From Stigmatella aurantiaca DW4/3-1 (lineage in GTDB: Bacteria; Myxococcota; Myxococcia; Myxococcales; Myxococcaceae): DNA of 64,000 bases. Position numbers and translations under genes: made by a program. The stretch spans positions 1,445,501 through 1,509,500 of the forward strand of contig NC_014623.1 in assembly GCF_000165485.1 (NCBI RefSeq), given 5' to 3'. Positions 16,454 to 25,757 of this stretch are shown here, in pieces. Below the pieces are notes generated by a model. The model saw nothing but the letters and a program-made list of their open reading frames with translations. It made no database searches and was not told the DNA's origin. Each line of letters starts with the position of its first letter. Position 1 is the stretch's first letter.

Positions 16454-17242
16454 ATGACCACTGAAATCGATTGGGGACCCATTCGAGCCCTGGGACAGCG
16501 CGTAATCGAGCGCGGTGAACCGCTCGAGCTCACGGACGAGGTGCGCGCTCTCTTGCAACGTTCCGCAGAAGAGGTAGCGCTCGCTCCAGAGGACGCGCAG
16601 AACGCTCTACGCAGTATTCCCACGGCCACCACGCTGCTGGGGGAGATCAGACGCCGCATCCGTGAGGGCTCAGCCCAGCTCGGCGCGGCCACACTCCGGG
16701 CTTATGACCTTCGGGATGATGGGGATCTGGACAGCGCGTGCAGGCAGATGGAAGAAGTGCTCGCTGTTGAGGTCGTACCGCTGTACCGGGAGCACGCCGA
16801 AGCCATGCTCCGCGAGATGACCCAGCTCAAATCGGTTGCCTCGAGCGGCCAAGTCGATCCGAAGCTCTCTGACCGGGCTCAGGCCCCGATCCTTCTGCAT
16901 CGAGTTCAGCAAGGACACCCATTGGAACTCAACGAGGGGATGCGCGCCTTCCTGCGAAGGTCCGCCTCTGACGCGGGCATGAGCGAGGCTGAGACGGAAG
17001 AGGCTCTCGCAATCCCTGAGCGTGCAGGGACTCTCTTGGGGCAGATCATGCAGCGCCTCCGTGATGCCTCAGACCGGCTTGAGAGCGCCATGTATCGGAT
17101 GACGGAACTCCAGGACGCAGGGGATGTCGAAGGGGCACGGCAGCAGATCCGCGACTGGCTGGCCGTGGAGGTTGTCCCGAGGTTTCGCCGTGCCGCCGAG
17201 GAGCAGCTCACGTACCTGGATTCGCTCCCCCCTGCGCCGTAG
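16454..17242 (+). CDS. Double DUSAM-domain protein
   Basis: 262 residues built of two homologous halves, about 3-125 and 135-260. Paired stretches include PLELTDEVRALLQRSA with PLELNEGMRAFLRRSA, TLLGEIRRRIREGS with TLLGQIMQRLRDAS, and LAVEVVPLYREHAE with LAVEVVPRFRRAAE. This is the DUSAM domain, a family of unknown function found as single or tandem copies in myxobacteria. There is no signal peptide, so the protein is cytoplasmic and very likely all-helical. The start at 16454 follows the lipoprotein stop by 6 bases, so the two form one unit. A lipoprotein next to a soluble partner is the layout of SitA/SitI toxin-immunity pairs exchanged between myxobacteria; applying it here is inference. 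Confidence 0.8.
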   Translation: MTTEIDWGPIRALGQRVIERGEPLELTDEVRALLQRSAEEVALAPEDAQNALRSIPTATTLLGEIRRRIREGSAQLGAATLRAYDLRDDGDLDSACRQMEEVLAVEVVPLYREHAEAMLREMTQLKSVASSGQVDPKLSDRAQAPILLHRVQQGHPLELNEGMRAFLRRSASDAGMSEAETEEALAIPERAGTLLGQIMQRLRDASDRLESAMYRMTELQDAGDVEGARQQIRDWLAVEVVPRFRRAAEEQLTYLDSLPPAP

Positions 17243-20390: not shown

Positions 20391-21959
20391 CTACTCGCCG
20401 CCTTCCTCACAACAGCCCGCACCAATGGAGTCCTTGAGGATCTCCGTTTTGAGGAGAAACGCCCCCGTGGTGACGACCTCGGCGCCAGGCATGAGCCCCT
20501 TCACCACCTCCACCTGCTCGGGGGTTTCCGTTCCCAGCTCCACGGCGACGGGTTCATAGAGGCCTACTTCCTTCTTCACGAAGACGAGGAAGCGGCCCTC
20601 CGCGCGCTGGATGGCTTGGCGGGGAACCACCCATGCCGCACGCGCTTCGGAGATTTGAATGCGCCCTCTCAGGAAGAGGCCTGCCTTGAGGGCATGGTCC
20701 GGGTTGGGCAACTCCACGCGGGCGCGCACGGTGCGGGTGGCCGGATCCACGGACGCGCCGACGCGGGTGAGGGTGGCCTCGCGTGTCTCTCCGGGAATGC
20801 CCTCGAAGTGGAGCGTCACCTTCTGGCCCGCGCGCACGGACAGGGCGTCTGCCTCGGGAATGTCGAGCTGTGCCCAGAGGGTGGAGAGGTCTGCCACGTG
20901 AAGGAGTGTCTGGCCAGCGGCCACGTGCTGGCCGGGGACGGCATCCCGTGACACCACCGTGCCGGACAGAGGGGCCCTGAGCGTGTACTGCCCTTGAGCG
21001 CTCGCGCTCCCTGCCCCCGCGGCGGAGAGCGCCGCGCGTGCCGCGGCCATCGCGCCTTCCGCCGAGGCCAGCTCGGTCTGGGCCTGCTCCATGTCCTGCC
21101 TGGCGCTGATGCCCCGCTGAACGAGGGACTGTTCACGGGCGAGGGCCGCACGGGCGGCGGAGACGCGCGCCTGAGCCGCGAGGAGGCGGCCCTGGTCCTC
21201 CCCCACGGAGGCGGACGCCACCTCGGCCAGGGGTTGGCCTTCCTTCACCTCATCGCCCACGTCGGCGTGCACCTTCAGGACGAGCACGTCTCCCCGGGCC
21301 GAGAGCGGGGCGTGACGGTTGTGATTGAAGGCGAGCTGGCCCACCACCTCCAGGGTCCGGGCGAGGTGCCGTTCCTCCACGCGTTGCGTGACAAGGCCCG
21401 CCTCTCGCGCGGTTTCCTCCGAGGCGAGGCGCACGCGCATGCCGGGAGGGGGGAAGACCGGGGGCGTTGCGCCCGCGGCCTTGACCCGCTCCGGGTGGCA
21501 ATGAGGGCAGACCGATTCCGGGAAGCCATGCTCCCGGCAGTAGTCGCCTGCTTCAATGAAGCGCGCGATGAGCTGCGGGTGGCACTTCGTGCATTGGGAT
21601 TCCGGAACCGCGTGCTCCTGGCACCAGTCTTTGGGCGTGGAGGCGGGTGCCGTGAAGGTGAGGGCGGGGTTGCATGTGCGGCAGTGCGACTCGGGCACCT
21701 GGTGCTCCTCACACCAATCGCCCTGGGCTTTGAAGACATCCACGAGTTCGGGGATGCACCGCGTGCACAGATCCGCTGGCACGCCATGCTCACACAAATG
21801 AATGCCCTGGGAGGCTTCGGCGGCCATGGGGCTGCCCGCATCCGCGTGGCGCGGGGGGGAGACGGCCGCGGAGGGAGGCGGAGGGCTCTTCGTGCACGCG
21901 GCGGCTCCCCAGATCAGGAGCACTGCGAGCGCGATCGAATGGATGCGGGCAGGCCTCAT
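20391..21959 (-). CDS. RND periplasmic adaptor (CusB/CzcB-like) with four Cys/His metal-binding-like repeats
   Basis: 522 residues. A lipobox (AAAC, Cys22) anchors it. Residues 55-156 hold four repeats of the form C-x-E-H-x2-P-E-x2-C-x2-C-x-P, with Cys at 56/65/68, 83/93/96, 113/123/126 and 141/151/154 and a His in each. From about 170 on it is an ordinary membrane-fusion protein: barrel-sandwich half motifs, a helical hairpin (residues ~255-310), a second half with APLSGTVVSRDAVPGQHV, and beta-barrel and membrane-proximal domains. The C-terminus ends with a CC pair. The repeats look like a periplasmic metal trap feeding the pump; this is inference. The start immediately follows the stop of the small repeat protein upstream and the pump follows 5 bases later, a tight operon. 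Confidence 0.9.
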   Translation of the reverse strand: MRPARIHSIALAVLLIWGAAACTKSPPPPSAAVSPPRHADAGSPMAAEASQGIHLCEHGVPADLCTRCIPELVDVFKAQGDWCEEHQVPESHCRTCNPALTFTAPASTPKDWCQEHAVPESQCTKCHPQLIARFIEAGDYCREHGFPESVCPHCHPERVKAAGATPPVFPPPGMRVRLASEETAREAGLVTQRVEERHLARTLEVVGQLAFNHNRHAPLSARGDVLVLKVHADVGDEVKEGQPLAEVASASVGEDQGRLLAAQARVSAARAALAREQSLVQRGISARQDMEQAQTELASAEGAMAAARAALSAAGAGSASAQGQYTLRAPLSGTVVSRDAVPGQHVAAGQTLLHVADLSTLWAQLDIPEADALSVRAGQKVTLHFEGIPGETREATLTRVGASVDPATRTVRARVELPNPDHALKAGLFLRGRIQISEARAAWVVPRQAIQRAEGRFLVFVKKEVGLYEPVAVELGTETPEQVEVVKGLMPGAEVVTTGAFLLKTEILKDSIGAGCCEEGGE

Positions 21960-22235
21960 CTACTTCACACCTTTCTGCGCAAGATCCGGGTGGCAGAGCA
22001 CGCACTGGGATTCGGGTCGCTCGTGCTCGGCGCACCAGTCCCCCTTGGACTTGTAGACAGGCGCCAGCTTGGGATTGCAGCGGGTGCAGAGGGATTTCTG
22101 CACCCCGTGCTCGCACTTCTGTTTTCCAGCCTCCGAGGGGGCGGCTTGCGGCGGCGGGGTTTCCCCGGCCCAGGCAGGGAGGGTGGGGGCGGACACGAGG
22201 CTCAGCAACACGGCAAAGGAACGAAGAGAACGCAT
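21960..22235 (-). CDS. Small periplasmic protein with two Cys/His repeats
   Basis: 91 residues: a signal peptide (hydrophobic 5-22, cleavage near AWAGE), then two units of the same repeat as in the adaptor, KCEHGVQKSLCTRCNP and WCAEHERPESQCVLCHP. Each has three Cys and one His. Its stop codon directly abuts the ATG of the adaptor gene, so the two are coupled. It probably works as a soluble periplasmic metal-binding partner or chaperone for the pump; the metal is unknown. GGAG lies about 7 bases before ATG 22235. A strong hairpin (22249-22278) touches this leader. Confidence 0.8.
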   Translation of the reverse strand: MRSLRSFAVLLSLVSAPTLPAWAGETPPPQAAPSEAGKQKCEHGVQKSLCTRCNPKLAPVYKSKGDWCAEHERPESQCVLCHPDLAQKGVK

Positions 22236-22399: not shown

Positions 22400-22699
22400 T
22401 CAGGCTCTCGGGGGCCGGAAGATGTCCGCGAGAACGCCCGAGGAAACGGGCGTGTTCAGGGCTTGGGGCGCTGGCGGAGGAAGGGAGGCGGGGATGAGGA
22501 CCCGCACCTCCACCCTTGGCGCGCTTGGAGCGGCCCGGAGGGGGCAGCACAGGCACAGCGCGCAGTCCGCGCAGGGCTGTCCCGATTCCTCCTCATCCGC
22601 GCATGCCACGGTGCCTTCGCTGGCGAGCGCGAGCGTCTGGAAGACGCCGCCAGTCGTCAGCACGAGGAGCAAGGCCAGGATGCGCAGGAGGAACGGCAT
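22400..22699 (-). CDS. Small exported Cys-rich protein
   Basis: 99 residues. Residues 1-26 are a hydrophobic signal peptide. The mature part starts with a cluster of seven Cys (ACADEEESGQPCADCALCLCC) and then a Pro-rich tail with no more Cys. Family unknown to me. The cluster could bind a soft metal such as copper, which fits the downstream efflux genes on the same strand. The start is taken as ATG 22699; a TTG at 22708 is possible, and neither has a good ribosome site. An inverted repeat lies just upstream of the ATG. It is separated from the repeat-protein gene by 164 bases that contain a hairpin. Confidence 0.6.
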   Translation of the reverse strand: MPFLLRILALLLVLTTGGVFQTLALASEGTVACADEEESGQPCADCALCLCCPLRAAPSAPRVEVRVLIPASLPPPAPQALNTPVSSGVLADIFRPPRA

Positions 22700-22703
22700 C
22701 AGT

Positions 22704-22720
22704 CCCAAGGCTTACTTGGG
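22704..22720. promoter_or_regulatory. Inverted repeat in the leader of the Cys-rich peptide gene
   Basis: CCCAAG and CTTGGG separated by GCTTA. It ends 5 bases from ATG 22699, where a ribosome site would be expected. It could be a repressor operator or an RNA hairpin limiting translation. Which one cannot be told from the sequence. Confidence 0.35.
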
Positions 22721-22733
22721 GACGCGGGGGGAG

Positions 22734-23288
22734 TCAACGTGCAGGGACCGCCGCGGGGGACGGCTCCTGGAGCAATTTCCCCAGCAGGCGCCGCATGGCC
22801 CGGGAATCCCAGTCCCTGCTGCCCGAGAAGCGAGCGGTCAGGCGTCCGTCGATGACCAGGATGCTCGCGGGGAGCGCATCGATGCCGAGTGCGCCGGCGG
22901 CCGCGTGCGCCTCATCCAGGCGCAGGTGAAGCCCGGCTGGAGGAGGGCCCCCCAGGAAGGACTCGACGGCTTGGAGGTGCGCATCGTGGCTGAAGACAAC
23001 GACCCGCAGCCCTTCCGGGGGCTGCTCCGCCAGCTTCAAGAGGGACGGCAGCTCCTCCCGGCAGGGGGGGCACCAGGAGGCCCAGAAGACCCAGAGCCAT
23101 GCCCGGGACGAAGGCATGTCCGTGAGGTTGGGGGCCGTCCCACCGAGCCGGACATAGGGCGGTGGCGGCTCGTTCTGACAACCGGGCGGTGCGGCCAGCA
23201 GGAGCAGACTGGCCATGACCCGGACGAGGGGGCGCGCGGCGCGAACCCCGTGGACGTTGCGCGGACTGTGACGGATCGCTGCCCTCAC
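22734..23288 (-). CDS. TlpA/ResA-like thioredoxin-fold lipoprotein
   Basis: 184 residues. A lipobox-like AAPPGC follows a hydrophobic stretch around residues 24-37, then a TlpA-like thioredoxin domain with the active site WASWCPPC near residue 71 and the cis-Pro in DALPAS. Such proteins reduce disulphides in the envelope, for example in cytochrome c assembly or copper-site metallation. The GTG start at 23288 overlaps the stop of the M56 peptidase gene by four bases, so the two are translationally coupled. An internal ATG (residue 25) would give a cleaner signal peptide. It ends 35 bases before the Cys-rich peptide gene, so the BlaI-type operon may read into the metal operon. Confidence 0.82.
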   Translation of the reverse strand: MRAAIRHSPRNVHGVRAARPLVRVMASLLLLAAPPGCQNEPPPPYVRLGGTAPNLTDMPSSRAWLWVFWASWCPPCREELPSLLKLAEQPPEGLRVVVFSHDAHLQAVESFLGGPPPAGLHLRLDEAHAAAGALGIDALPASILVIDGRLTARFSGSRDWDSRAMRRLLGKLLQEPSPAAVPAR

Positions 23289-25198
23289 TGTTTCGGCTGC
23301 CGCGACAGCCGGCGGATGAAGTCCGTGTCGATGCCGCTGGTCCGCAGGCGGATCAGCTCCTCGGTGGTGAGCGCCTCCAGACCGGCGTCTCTCATTTCCT
23401 GGATGAAGGCGGGACTCACGCCGAGGACGCGCAACTGGGTCAGGTCATCGGTGGAGAGGTCCTTCAGACCGGCCTCGCGCATGCTCTGGATGAAGTCCGG
23501 CGTGACGCCCACGGCGCGCATGTCCGTGATCCGCTCCAGCTCCAGGCCCGTGTATCCCGCGGCCTTCAGCTCGCTCACGTACGCCTCGTTCACGCCCACC
23601 GCGTGGGCGCTCGCCAGGGTGTCCGGGGTGACTTTCGAGAAGCCCAGCCGCTTCATGGCCTCCACTTCCGCGGCGGTGACCCCCAGGTGCTTGAGTTGCA
23701 CCAGTTCCTCCGCGGACGGTGGCTTGCCAAAGCTGGCGCTGAGGCCCTTCATGTACTCCTCGGTGATGCCCGCGTGGCCGAACTGCGTCAGGGTATCCAC
23801 TGTCGGCTCGTAGCCCATGGCCTCCACTGACTGGAGGGTGCTGGGGGTGACGCCCGCGACCTTCAACGCGACGAGCTGATCCACCGAGAGCTTGTCCTTG
23901 CCCACGCGCGGGCTCTCCTCTTCCGCTGGGCGGGGGGAGGGCCTGGACGAGGGAGAAGGCTTGGGAGCGGGCGAAGGCGGGGGGGGGGGCGCAACGGCAG
24001 GCTTGGGGGCGGCGGCCGTGCTGGGCGCGGGGACGGGGGAAGAGGTGTTTGCGGGCGGGGTGGCGGGCGGGACCGCGGCAGGAGTGGCGGGGCTTGCGGC
24101 CAGGAAGGTGCGGGGGGCCTGGGAGGGCAGCACCAGCGTGGTCAGGGGGGCAGCGACCGCGAGGCTGCTCATCAGTGTGAGGACGGAAGCCCCCGCGGCC
24201 CACCGCGAGGCGCAGCGAGACGAGGGCGCGGCCACGAGACGGCGCACGCGCTCCGGCAGCGAGCCGCCCAGGGCGGAGAGGGCGGGGGTGGGCTCCAGGG
24301 AGGGCAGCACGCGCAGCGCCTCCAGCGCCGTGAGTGCCCGGGCGTAGGAGAGGGTGTTGCCCGTCAGGCCCGCGGCCAGATCGTCACAGCAGTTCTCACG
24401 CTCCACGCGGATGACGTGGGACATCCACCAGATGGCCGGGTGATAGAAGAGCAGTGTTTCCACCAAGGTCTGGAGCAGGTTCACCACGAAGTCATGGCGG
24501 CGGATGTGTGCCAGCTCGTGCGCGAGGATCATCTCGAGCTGCCGCGTGGACAGGCCGGTGAGCGTGAAGACGGGCAGCAGCACCACGGGCCGCAGCCACC
24601 CCAGGGCCGAGGGCACGTCGAGCGCCGTGGACTGGAGCAGGCGCACCGCGCGCTTCATCCCGAGGCGCCGCGAGAGTGCCTCCAGCCGCTGTTGCCACTC
24701 CTCGGGCACGGGCGAAGCCGCGCGCACGCTCCGGCGCAGGCGCATCCACCCGGCCAGCAGCCGCAAGGAGGAGGCCACCACCCCCAGCCCCCAGGCGAGC
24801 ACCAGCCAGGGCAGGAGGCCGCGGAGCCGCGTGGCCTCCAGGGCGGTCTGGGGCAGGAACGTGGGCACGGAAGCAGGTGAGGCGAAGGGGGCGGAGACGG
24901 CCGGGGGGGGCACGGTGCTGTCCGTGGCCGCGTGCGGGGATGCCTCCGGTGTCTTCGCGAGGGAGACCCAGGGGGAGGCGCTGGGGGCCCGGAGCCGTGC
25001 GGCCTGGAAGTGCTGCCAGCCGGTGGCGACAGGCAAGACGAGCATTGCGCCGAGCGCGCCACAGGCCAGCCCATAGCGGGCGCTGGCCCGCTGTCCCAGC
25101 AGGCGCAGCCCAAGGGCGAGCACCGCCGCCACGAGCGCTCCCTGCCACAGCAAGTGCAACAGCGCCCAGCCCAGAGACTCCAGGATGATGTGCGTCAT
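23285..25198 (-). CDS. BlaR1/MecR1-like M56 metallopeptidase with C-terminal helical repeats
   Basis: 637 residues. Four membrane helices surround a cytoplasmic zinc protease domain with HELAH at 227-231, the M56 motif. After a Pro/Ala/Ser-rich linker (about 370-435), the extracytoplasmic part is not a penicillin-binding sensor. Instead there are seven repeats of about 29 residues with the pattern L-x2-L-x2-x-G-V-T/S-x3-I/L-x2-M-x2-A-G (residues 435-637). Repeats of this sort occur in other bacterial M56 proteins of unknown ligand. By analogy, signal binding activates cleavage of the BlaI-like repressor encoded just upstream (four-base ATGA overlap). The linker is encoded over an 11-base homopolymer (23979-23989), a slip-prone site that could switch off the repeat domain. 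Confidence 0.87.
   Translation of the reverse strand: MTHIILESLGWALLHLLWQGALVAAVLALGLRLLGQRASARYGLACGALGAMLVLPVATGWQHFQAARLRAPSASPWVSLAKTPEASPHAATDSTVPPPAVSAPFASPASVPTFLPQTALEATRLRGLLPWLVLAWGLGVVASSLRLLAGWMRLRRSVRAASPVPEEWQQRLEALSRRLGMKRAVRLLQSTALDVPSALGWLRPVVLLPVFTLTGLSTRQLEMILAHELAHIRRHDFVVNLLQTLVETLLFYHPAIWWMSHVIRVERENCCDDLAAGLTGNTLSYARALTALEALRVLPSLEPTPALSALGGSLPERVRRLVAAPSSRCASRWAAGASVLTLMSSLAVAAPLTTLVLPSQAPRTFLAASPATPAAVPPATPPANTSSPVPAPSTAAAPKPAVAPPPPPSPAPKPSPSSRPSPRPAEEESPRVGKDKLSVDQLVALKVAGVTPSTLQSVEAMGYEPTVDTLTQFGHAGITEEYMKGLSASFGKPPSAEELVQLKHLGVTAAEVEAMKRLGFSKVTPDTLASAHAVGVNEAYVSELKAAGYTGLELERITDMRAVGVTPDFIQSMREAGLKDLSTDDLTQLRVLGVSPAFIQEMRDAGLEALTTEELIRLRTSGIDTDFIRRLSRQPKQ
23979..23989. 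repeat. 11-base G/C homopolymer in the linker of the M56 gene
   Basis: Eleven consecutive G on the plus strand (C on the coding strand) within the Pro-rich linker codons. Gain or loss of one base would remove the C-terminal repeat domain while leaving the protease domain intact. Confidence 0.6.
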
Positions 25199-25581
25199 GG
25201 CTCTTCCTCCTTCTCCAGCGAATCCAGGAGCCGGCGCAACTCGGCCAGCTCTTCGGGTGAGGTTTTCTTCGAGGACAACGCCTGCAGGGCAAGCTGGGCC
25301 GGTGACCCTCCGAAGGCGCGATCCATGAGATCCGCCACGAGCTGCCGCTGTGTCTTCTGCTGTGGGACACGCGCGCTGTAGACGTGCGCGCGCTGGGACT
25401 CATCGCGGACCACGAGCCCTTTCTCGGTCATGATCTGCATCAGCTTGAGAAGGGTGGTGTAGCCCGTCCCATCCTGGAAGGCCTCGTGCACCTCCCGGAC
25501 CGTGCTGGGGCCTCGCTTCCAGAGCACGCGCAGGATCGCCAGCTCGGCGTCCGTGGGACGCGGCAGTTTCAATTCGCCCAT
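25195..25581 (-). CDS. BlaI/MecI-type transcriptional repressor
   Basis: 128 residues. A winged-helix domain (LPRPTDAELAILRVLWKRGPSTVREV, then GYTTLLKLMQIMTEKGLV) and a C-terminal helical dimerisation region ending in LRRLLDSLEKEEE are typical of the family. Such repressors are cleaved when a partner M56 protease is activated. The ATG at 25581 begins the conserved domain; the frame is open to 25680 but that part crosses the operator. A perfect 9-base inverted repeat (25608-25629) lies 27 bases upstream. It is translationally coupled to the protease gene. It probably represses its own operon, and the target may include the downstream thioredoxin and metal-efflux genes. Confidence 0.9.
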   Translation of the reverse strand: MGELKLPRPTDAELAILRVLWKRGPSTVREVHEAFQDGTGYTTLLKLMQIMTEKGLVVRDESQRAHVYSARVPQQKTQRQLVADLMDRAFGGSPAQLALQALSSKKTSPEELAELRRLLDSLEKEEEP

Positions 25582-25607
25582 GGGGTCTCCCTCGTCATTC
25601 GAGAGCA

Positions 25608-25629
25608 ATATACGAAGCAATTCGTATAT
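25608..25629. promoter_or_regulatory. Palindromic operator for the BlaI-like repressor
   Basis: Arms ATATACGAA and TTCGTATAT are perfect inverted copies around GCAA. It is strikingly AT-rich for this genome and lies between the repressor start and the divergent gene. A further half site TTCGTA occurs at 25643. The position fits autoregulation. Confidence 0.7.
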
Positions 25630-25757
25630 GTCAACGAGGACCTTCGTAGACAGCGGGTGTTGCCCCGCTGAATCCCGCAAGCCCCGGGAGGAATGACAGC
25701 CAGGATGTGATAAAATGTCTCACGACTTCCCGGCTGTGGCTCGAAGGGGTTTCCCAG

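Follow-up and report, generated by a model that had tools for sequence, protein, structure and literature searches.

We wondered why a periplasmic efflux adaptor of Stigmatella aurantiaca DW4/3-1 and a small exported protein encoded beside it should carry copies of the same cysteine-rich repeat, and what this repeat might do for the associated pump. The stretch of contig NC_014623.1 that we analyzed (64,000 nucleotides, hereafter the window) encodes both proteins in a row of minus-strand genes. In the order of transcription these are a BlaI-type repressor (25195..25680, Pfam), whose gene overlaps that of an M56 (BlaR1-type) membrane peptidase (23285..25198, Pfam); a thioredoxin-like protein with a WCPPC motif, a signal and a lipobox-like Cys (22734..23288); a small exported Cys-rich protein (P0004, CADCALCLCC, 22400..22708, recognised from its sequence); a 91-residue exported two-module protein (P0002, 21960..22235); a 522-residue periplasmic adaptor with a lipobox-like Cys22 (P0001, 20391..21959, by Pfam, NCBIfam and an AlphaFold2 model); and a CusA/CzcA-family RND pump (P0003, 17260..20385; TIGR00914 with 1178.6 bits at a cut-off of 701.45). 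For the thioredoxin-like protein, the Redoxin (39.1 bits) and Thioredoxin (29.3 bits) matches both lie above cut-off and the signal was judged by eye. P0004 starts the last part of this row 164 bases upstream of P0002, which abuts P0001, and 5 bases separate P0001 from P0003. Given the abutting genes and this short gap, P0002, P0001 and P0003 are very likely co-transcribed on one transcript.

The M56 peptidase is likely a regulator of the pump operon; a BlaI/BlaR1-type pair heading the metal-efflux operon was seen in two of 15 relatives, members of the same genus. P0004 found no family match in a Pfam search. It recurs in relatives between the thioredoxin gene and the two-module gene and is possibly another metal protein or a regulator. 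No outer-membrane channel gene was found near the operon, the nearest OEP match being about 0.5 Mb away. Just downstream, on the other strand (16454-17242), lies a gene for a protein with two DUF2379 matches (202 bits) and unrelated sequence. The periplasmic location that an earlier note on this DNA had assigned to the small protein agrees with the Sec-type export signal that we recognised by eye in P0002. The protein is without a lipobox in S. aurantiaca, and most of its aligned relatives have a lipobox-like Cys instead.

The same note had counted four repeats in the adaptor and two in the small protein, each with three Cys and one His, and the count is right. The six copies occupy residues 56-70, 83-98, 113-128 and 141-156 of P0001 and residues 41-55 and 68-83 of P0002, and all six keep the three Cys and the His. 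On the minus strand, P0002 modules 1 (short type, CEHGVQKSLCTRCNP) and 2 (CAEHERPESQCVLCHP) lie at 22071..22115 and 21987..22034, and P0001 modules 1 (short type, CEHGVPADLCTRCIP), 2 (CEEHQVPESHCRTCNP), 3 (CQEHAVPESQCTKCHP) and 4 (CREHGFPESVCPHCHP) at 21750..21794, 21666..21713, 21576..21623 and 21492..21539. The consensus proposed as the shared repeat, C-x-E-H-x2-P-E-x2-C-x2-C-x-P, proved too narrow: the repeat is present in both proteins, but its strict form describes only four of the six copies. The first copy of P0001 and that of P0002 are one residue shorter (CEH) and lack P-E while keeping C-H-C-C. A six-frame scan of the 64 kb with the looser C-x(1,2)-H-x(6,7)-C-x2-C returned exactly these six matches. 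Sixty Markov-1 simulated windows contained 0.37 loose matches on average, two at most and no strict ones, and a chance origin of the repeats was therefore rejected. Since both proteins start with a short-type module and continue with the long type, a two-module unit appears to be common to both; residues 17-85 of P0002 share 46% identity with P0001 (tblastn).

The four modules of the adaptor sit in an N-terminal extension ahead of a HlyD/CzcB-like core that begins at about residue 180. P0001 passed the TIGR01730 model for RND periplasmic adaptors (187.1 bits, cut-off 94.9) and remained below the curated cut-off of the CzcB/NccB adaptor model TIGR00999 (185.1 bits, cut-off 319.3). Its Pfam and NCBIfam matches run from residue 181 on, the Pfam stretches starting at 199 or later, and all 25 PDB sequence matches begin at residue 186 or later. 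No model in Pfam or NCBIfam, CusF- and CusB-type metal domains included, covers the repeats, and no Pfam metal-binding domain was found at E up to 1 in P0002 or in residues 1-180 of P0001. P0002 yielded one B-box match in Pfam, far below cut-off (E 0.34), and a single PDB sequence match (E 0.63). The module thus differs from the classical CusB-type metal domain, as had been supposed. The earlier note had also allowed for an already characterised family, and we found neither a Pfam or NCBIfam model nor a solved fold that covers the repeats.

AlphaFold2 modelled the modules with confidence. Block means of pLDDT were 91-95 over residues 51-80 of P0002, and values of 89-96 and 83-96 were reached over residues 61-100 and 121-160 of P0001, separated by a weak linker at 101-110. 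From these blocks and the linker, the extension of P0001 looks like two double-module domains, each resembling P0002, which suggests that the predicted structural unit is a module pair of about 45 residues. Foldseek found no PDB match for the P0002 model at E up to 10; five structures of a viral library matched, all with E of 6 or more. The P0001 model found known adaptors only. The motif and a domain description of the module were not found mentioned in the openly licensed PMC literature, the NCBIfam name IhpB led to no relevant paper among the matches listed, and the repeats are absent from the available parts of PMC7726332 (Geobacter cobalt) and PMC3707914 (Myxococcus copper). Judged by sequence, the tandem Cys3His module therefore appears to be without a description in the libraries and the openly licensed PMC literature searched.

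To see how far the module extends, we scanned one genome per species with two short peptide patterns. This gave 188 stretches, 170 of which encode a relative, and the pattern search that the earlier note had proposed places the module in several distant phyla. Most relatives belong to Planctomycetota and Myxococcota. A few Zixibacteria and individual genome assemblies from Bacteroidales, Riflebacteria, Armatimonadetes and Calditrichaeota carry it too, and for these misbinning is possible. Among Myxococcota, P0002 relatives at E up to 0.01 occur in 67 of 195 genomes and 19 of 90 genera. Two plasmids carry the module, one of them typed as mobilizable. This plasmid, of Planctomycetes bacterium K2D (L037 / L133), holds merA, czcC, czcB, czcA and cadA together with genes for a two-module protein, an HMA protein, an exported thioredoxin and CDF proteins.

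Cysteines outside the search anchor are kept almost without exception (fourth Cys 71/71, first Cys 70/71), and a complete upstream module, which the patterns did not require, was present in 17 of 17 cases. In 301 aligned copies, conservation extends to W, E, P and S positions. How often ligands are lost can hardly be read from this set, since complete copies served as seed of the profile. An adaptor carries between one and six modules. Six modules were seen in the adaptor at L097, L103, L104, L107, L113 and L118 and in a small protein at L115 (6189-6812). Degenerate copies exist in L140, in L065, where a Cys is lost, and in planctomycete adaptors, which combine one full copy with a degenerate second one. 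The planctomycete copy and the loss of Cys in L065 indicate that some of these systems manage with fewer than all sites intact.

The module keeps close company with one type of pump. In the best 80 of the 170 loci, on which all our locus counts rest, we found an RND gene in 76, a module-bearing adaptor in 69, a separate two-module protein in 65 and all three in 54. The four loci without RND (L088, L098, L105, L116) stop in or just past the adaptor, and many of the 11 without a module-bearing adaptor are short contigs. Thirteen loci have the adaptor and, by the filter applied, lack a separate small protein; two of them, L084 and L104, have a two-module frame beyond the filter length. In myxobacteria the gene for the small protein comes first, followed by those for adaptor and RND, whereas in planctomycetes it stands last, behind adaptor and RND. 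On a FastTree tree of 116 RND proteins, for which long branches were warned of, the module label changes only twice, compared with a mean of 30.4 after shuffling, and none of 500 shuffles was as low; 78 of the 81 module-linked RNDs fall into one clade and three outside. The assignment of the module to the pump made in the earlier note is upheld by these two label changes and by the 76 of 80 loci with an RND.

The linkage was also seen when loci were selected on the RND alone. Among 189 Myxococcota genomes, 47 P0003 relatives have at least 64% identity, separated by a gap from the rest at 52% or below. Forty-five of them adjoin module matches (paired by hand), and for each of the remaining two the start is no more than 1.2 kb away from where the contig stops. 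Thirty of these loci were fetched; all show VDSS in the RND and the GAGCC tail of the adaptor described below, and 29 show modules, the remaining one (L206) being cut by the contig. The module-linked clade has its own signature in transmembrane segment 4, which reads LGAIDFGLVVDSSVILVEN in P0003 (19165..19221, minus strand). Of 81 module-linked RNDs, 77 combine DFG with DSS, DSA or DNA. None of 35 other RNDs does so; these show DG(A/S/T) or have no DFG. The three module-linked RNDs outside the main clade have a TM4 without DFG.

Two variations on this theme were noticed. Adaptors of L152, L153, L154 and L074 have one or three modules (of CEHG..TFECDECRYEVGVV type in the first three), a GAGCAD end and RNDs without DFG in TM4, and could by their sequences represent another class of pump whose adaptors carry thiols at the same two ends. 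In L163 and L176, a module-bearing adaptor-RND pair lies directly beside a module-less VDGA pair, so that the two related pumps may act one after the other or alternate with each other.

A second thiol site is located at the other end of the adaptor. P0001 terminates in a GAGCC tail (residues 513-517, 20409..20423, minus strand), identified by comparison of tails and by AlphaFold2, in which residues 514-522 are predicted to be disordered (pLDDT below 50). A GxGC(C) end, mostly GAGCC and in planctomycetes GCxC, is shared by 78 of 79 module adaptors as opposed to two of 37 others. These comparison adaptors were mostly picked away from module matches, so that their lack of modules is by choice, whereas their lack of the tail is not. 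Three exceptions were seen: L065, whose module lost a Cys, L069, which is cut by the contig, and L071, which stops at GAG. E. coli CusB, the SilB-like adaptor of pMOL30 and four plasmid-borne CzcB-like adaptors have no tail Cys and 0 or 1 Cys overall.

What might a pump gain from thiols at both ends of its adaptor? The answer to which we give a little better than an even chance is a cysteine-based supply line for Zn/Cd-class ions that belongs to an HME-type RND efflux system and has thioredoxin as reductant. The sequences show the repeats, their conservation, the link to one RND clade, the company of the thiol tail and the order of genes with thioredoxin; from these we infer metal binding, the metal, the direction of transfer and the roles of tail and thioredoxin. 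We considered whether the modules could instead be structural, zinc-finger-like docking domains that hold one tight Zn each without handing it over and that join adaptor, two-module protein and thioredoxin. This is improbable in our judgement, yet it has to be taken seriously: the modules are compact mini-domains modelled with confidence (pLDDT 91-96 over the modules), non-ligand W, P, E and S residues are strongly kept, as in a fold, and the module exists without a pump when fused to thioredoxin (see below). However, a copy number of one to six per adaptor looks like a matter of capacity rather than of a single docking surface, and docking leaves aside that the module tracks one RND clade as well as a further thiol site, the one at the opposite terminus of the adaptor.

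The supply line would require thiols that stay reduced, and an exported thioredoxin may provide for this. A gene for one is present in 24 of the best 80 loci; 56 show none, and some of their contigs are short. Inspected by eye, most of the thioredoxin N-termini listed contain a hydrophobic segment and many a lipobox-like Cys. In myxobacteria the usual order is thioredoxin-P0004-small protein-adaptor-RND. Of 15 myxobacterial module loci, 11 have a thioredoxin gene upstream in the same orientation and the other four have none, compared with one of 20 comparison RND loci from the phylum; these are not independent events, because the protein of the window itself served as query and the genomes are related. 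The sole comparison locus with a thioredoxin is L154, which itself has one weak module. In a third gene type, the encoded lipoprotein has two modules and, behind them, a thioredoxin domain. This type was found in all eight loci fetched for it (L135-L142, Myxococcota; e.g. L138:4873-5502), the thioredoxin domain being confirmed by Pfam in the one protein tested, and no RND gene was recognised by eye in these loci. The fusion is followed in seven of the eight by a conserved gene of about 290 codons (start near SVR..HE..CPD.GP.C), whose L138 copy is without a Pfam match.

The fusion joins modules and thioredoxin directly; it would fit reduction of periplasmic thiols and would also fit a purely redox role. 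In the latter case the modules might be redox elements on which thioredoxin acts or with which it cooperates, and their thiol-disulfide exchange would report oxidation or metal stress or shield the pump. The recurring thioredoxin gene beside the modules and a fusion with no pump gene nearby speak for this idea. We nevertheless think it quite unlikely, since an invariant His (part of the seed) and the set of three Cys and one His agree more readily with a metal site than with a disulfide relay, and the 56 loci that show no thioredoxin count against it as well.

If the modules supply metal, which class of metal would it be? ZneA is the nearest solved relative of P0003. The DFG...D...E pattern in TM4 of P0003 is present, and the segment reads LGAIDFGIIVDGAIV in ZneA. 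The positions that we take to be the metal methionines of CusA (573, 623 and 672, all three Met in the CusA sequence fetched) correspond to N559, L611 and E661 of P0003. None of the 81 module-linked RNDs has Met at any of these positions and all 81 have Glu at 672. A CadA-type ATPase is encoded in 29 and a CDF protein in eight of the best 80 loci. Three CadA proteins, one from the K2D plasmid and two from the 80 loci, pass the Cd-family cut-off and miss that of the Cu family. The CzcA-like RND and its context of CadA and CDF genes point to Zn/Cd-class ions without being proof, and the absent Met triad together with the Cd-type CadA makes the Cu/Ag class unlikely.

The same relay could serve Cu(I), Ag(I) or Hg(II) instead, as thiolates have a high affinity for Cu(I) and Hg(II), some planctomycete loci encode HMA/CopZ/MerP-like proteins, and the vicinal Cys pair on a flexible tail resembles that of mercuric reductase. 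With N, L and E at the CusA Met positions of P0003, no Met in the 81 module-linked RNDs, a DFG...D TM4 as in ZneA and Cd-family CadA in the tested loci, we hold this to be very unlikely. That the modules are c-type heme sites is next to impossible and was in essence rejected: three of the six window copies read CxxCH (CVLCH, CTKCH, CPHCH) and a relative has a weak Cytochrome_C7 match below cut-off (E 0.014), but of 301 aligned copies only 49 have His after CxxC, while 119 have Asn there and 68 Asp, and the first Cys and the preceding His are kept.

In the supply line for Zn/Cd-class ions that we prefer, a soft divalent cation, most likely of the Zn2+ or Cd2+ class, would be captured by the paired Cys3His modules on the periplasmic side. 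P0002 would take up the ion first and deliver it to the row of modules in the N-terminal extension of P0001. From there it would reach the acidic site of P0003, perhaps via the flexible GAGCC tail, for which a position close to the pump is expected, while the exported thioredoxin would hold the cysteines of modules and tail reduced. More tentatively, and with somewhat less than an even chance, these proteins may define a new family of periplasmic metallochaperones that form a thiolate bucket chain from P0002 over the adaptor and its GxGC(C) tail to the acidic site of the RND, for the Zn/Cd class and with a dedicated thioredoxin.

Periplasmic supply of ions to RND metal pumps has been worked out mainly for copper. 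The GxGC(C) tail, the distinct RND clade, the recurring exported thioredoxin and the module pair as a unit go beyond the earlier note. As the module marks one pump clade and is accompanied by a second thiol site and a thioredoxin, a zinc/cadmium supply step becomes directly testable, with the 91-residue protein as the first object. Our reading also raises the question of how free thiols stay available for metal handling in an oxidising compartment, and it would give a name to 'hypothetical' proteins beside czcA.

With zinc ribbons and other C-x-x-C zinc sites the module has in common four ligands, short knuckles and a predicted short helix at CxxC; unlike them, it has no Foldseek PDB match at E up to 10 and no Pfam match. 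In mercuric reductase, C-terminal vicinal Cys on a flexible tail are the point of metal hand-over. The vicinal Cys on the flexible tail of P0001 are alike, although they belong to another protein in another compartment. CzcCBA and ZneCAB likewise combine a CzcA-like RND with a HlyD-type adaptor, and ZneA and ZneB are the best solved relatives. In contrast, the adaptors of four module-less CzcA-like pumps from plasmids contain at most one Cys and neither modules nor a thiol tail, and their RNDs read VDGA where module-linked ones read VDSS. No outer-membrane channel gene was found by the operon described here, whereas the K2D plasmid relative has czcC adjacent. For zinc, PMC10393844 reports a model in which CzcB hands zinc to CzcA and describes CzcI of P. 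stutzeri as a possible chaperone.

The closest parallel in layout is CusF-CusB-CusA of E. coli, which unites a small periplasmic metal protein, an adaptor and an RND much as the putative metal protein P0002, P0001 and P0003 stand together here. According to PMC8277102, Cu+ passes from CusF to CusB to CusA, CusA has five methionine clusters, and membrane-adjacent adaptor domains present the substrate in HME pumps. The sequences are unrelated, the sites of Cus are Met-based as opposed to the Cys3His modules described here, and E. coli CusB is without Cys. With no domain in common with CusF or the N-terminus of CusB, the module is not a member of these families. If our reading is true, it would represent a counterpart of the methionine-based Cus relay that is powered by thiol-redox chemistry and found across several phyla as well as on a mobilizable plasmid.
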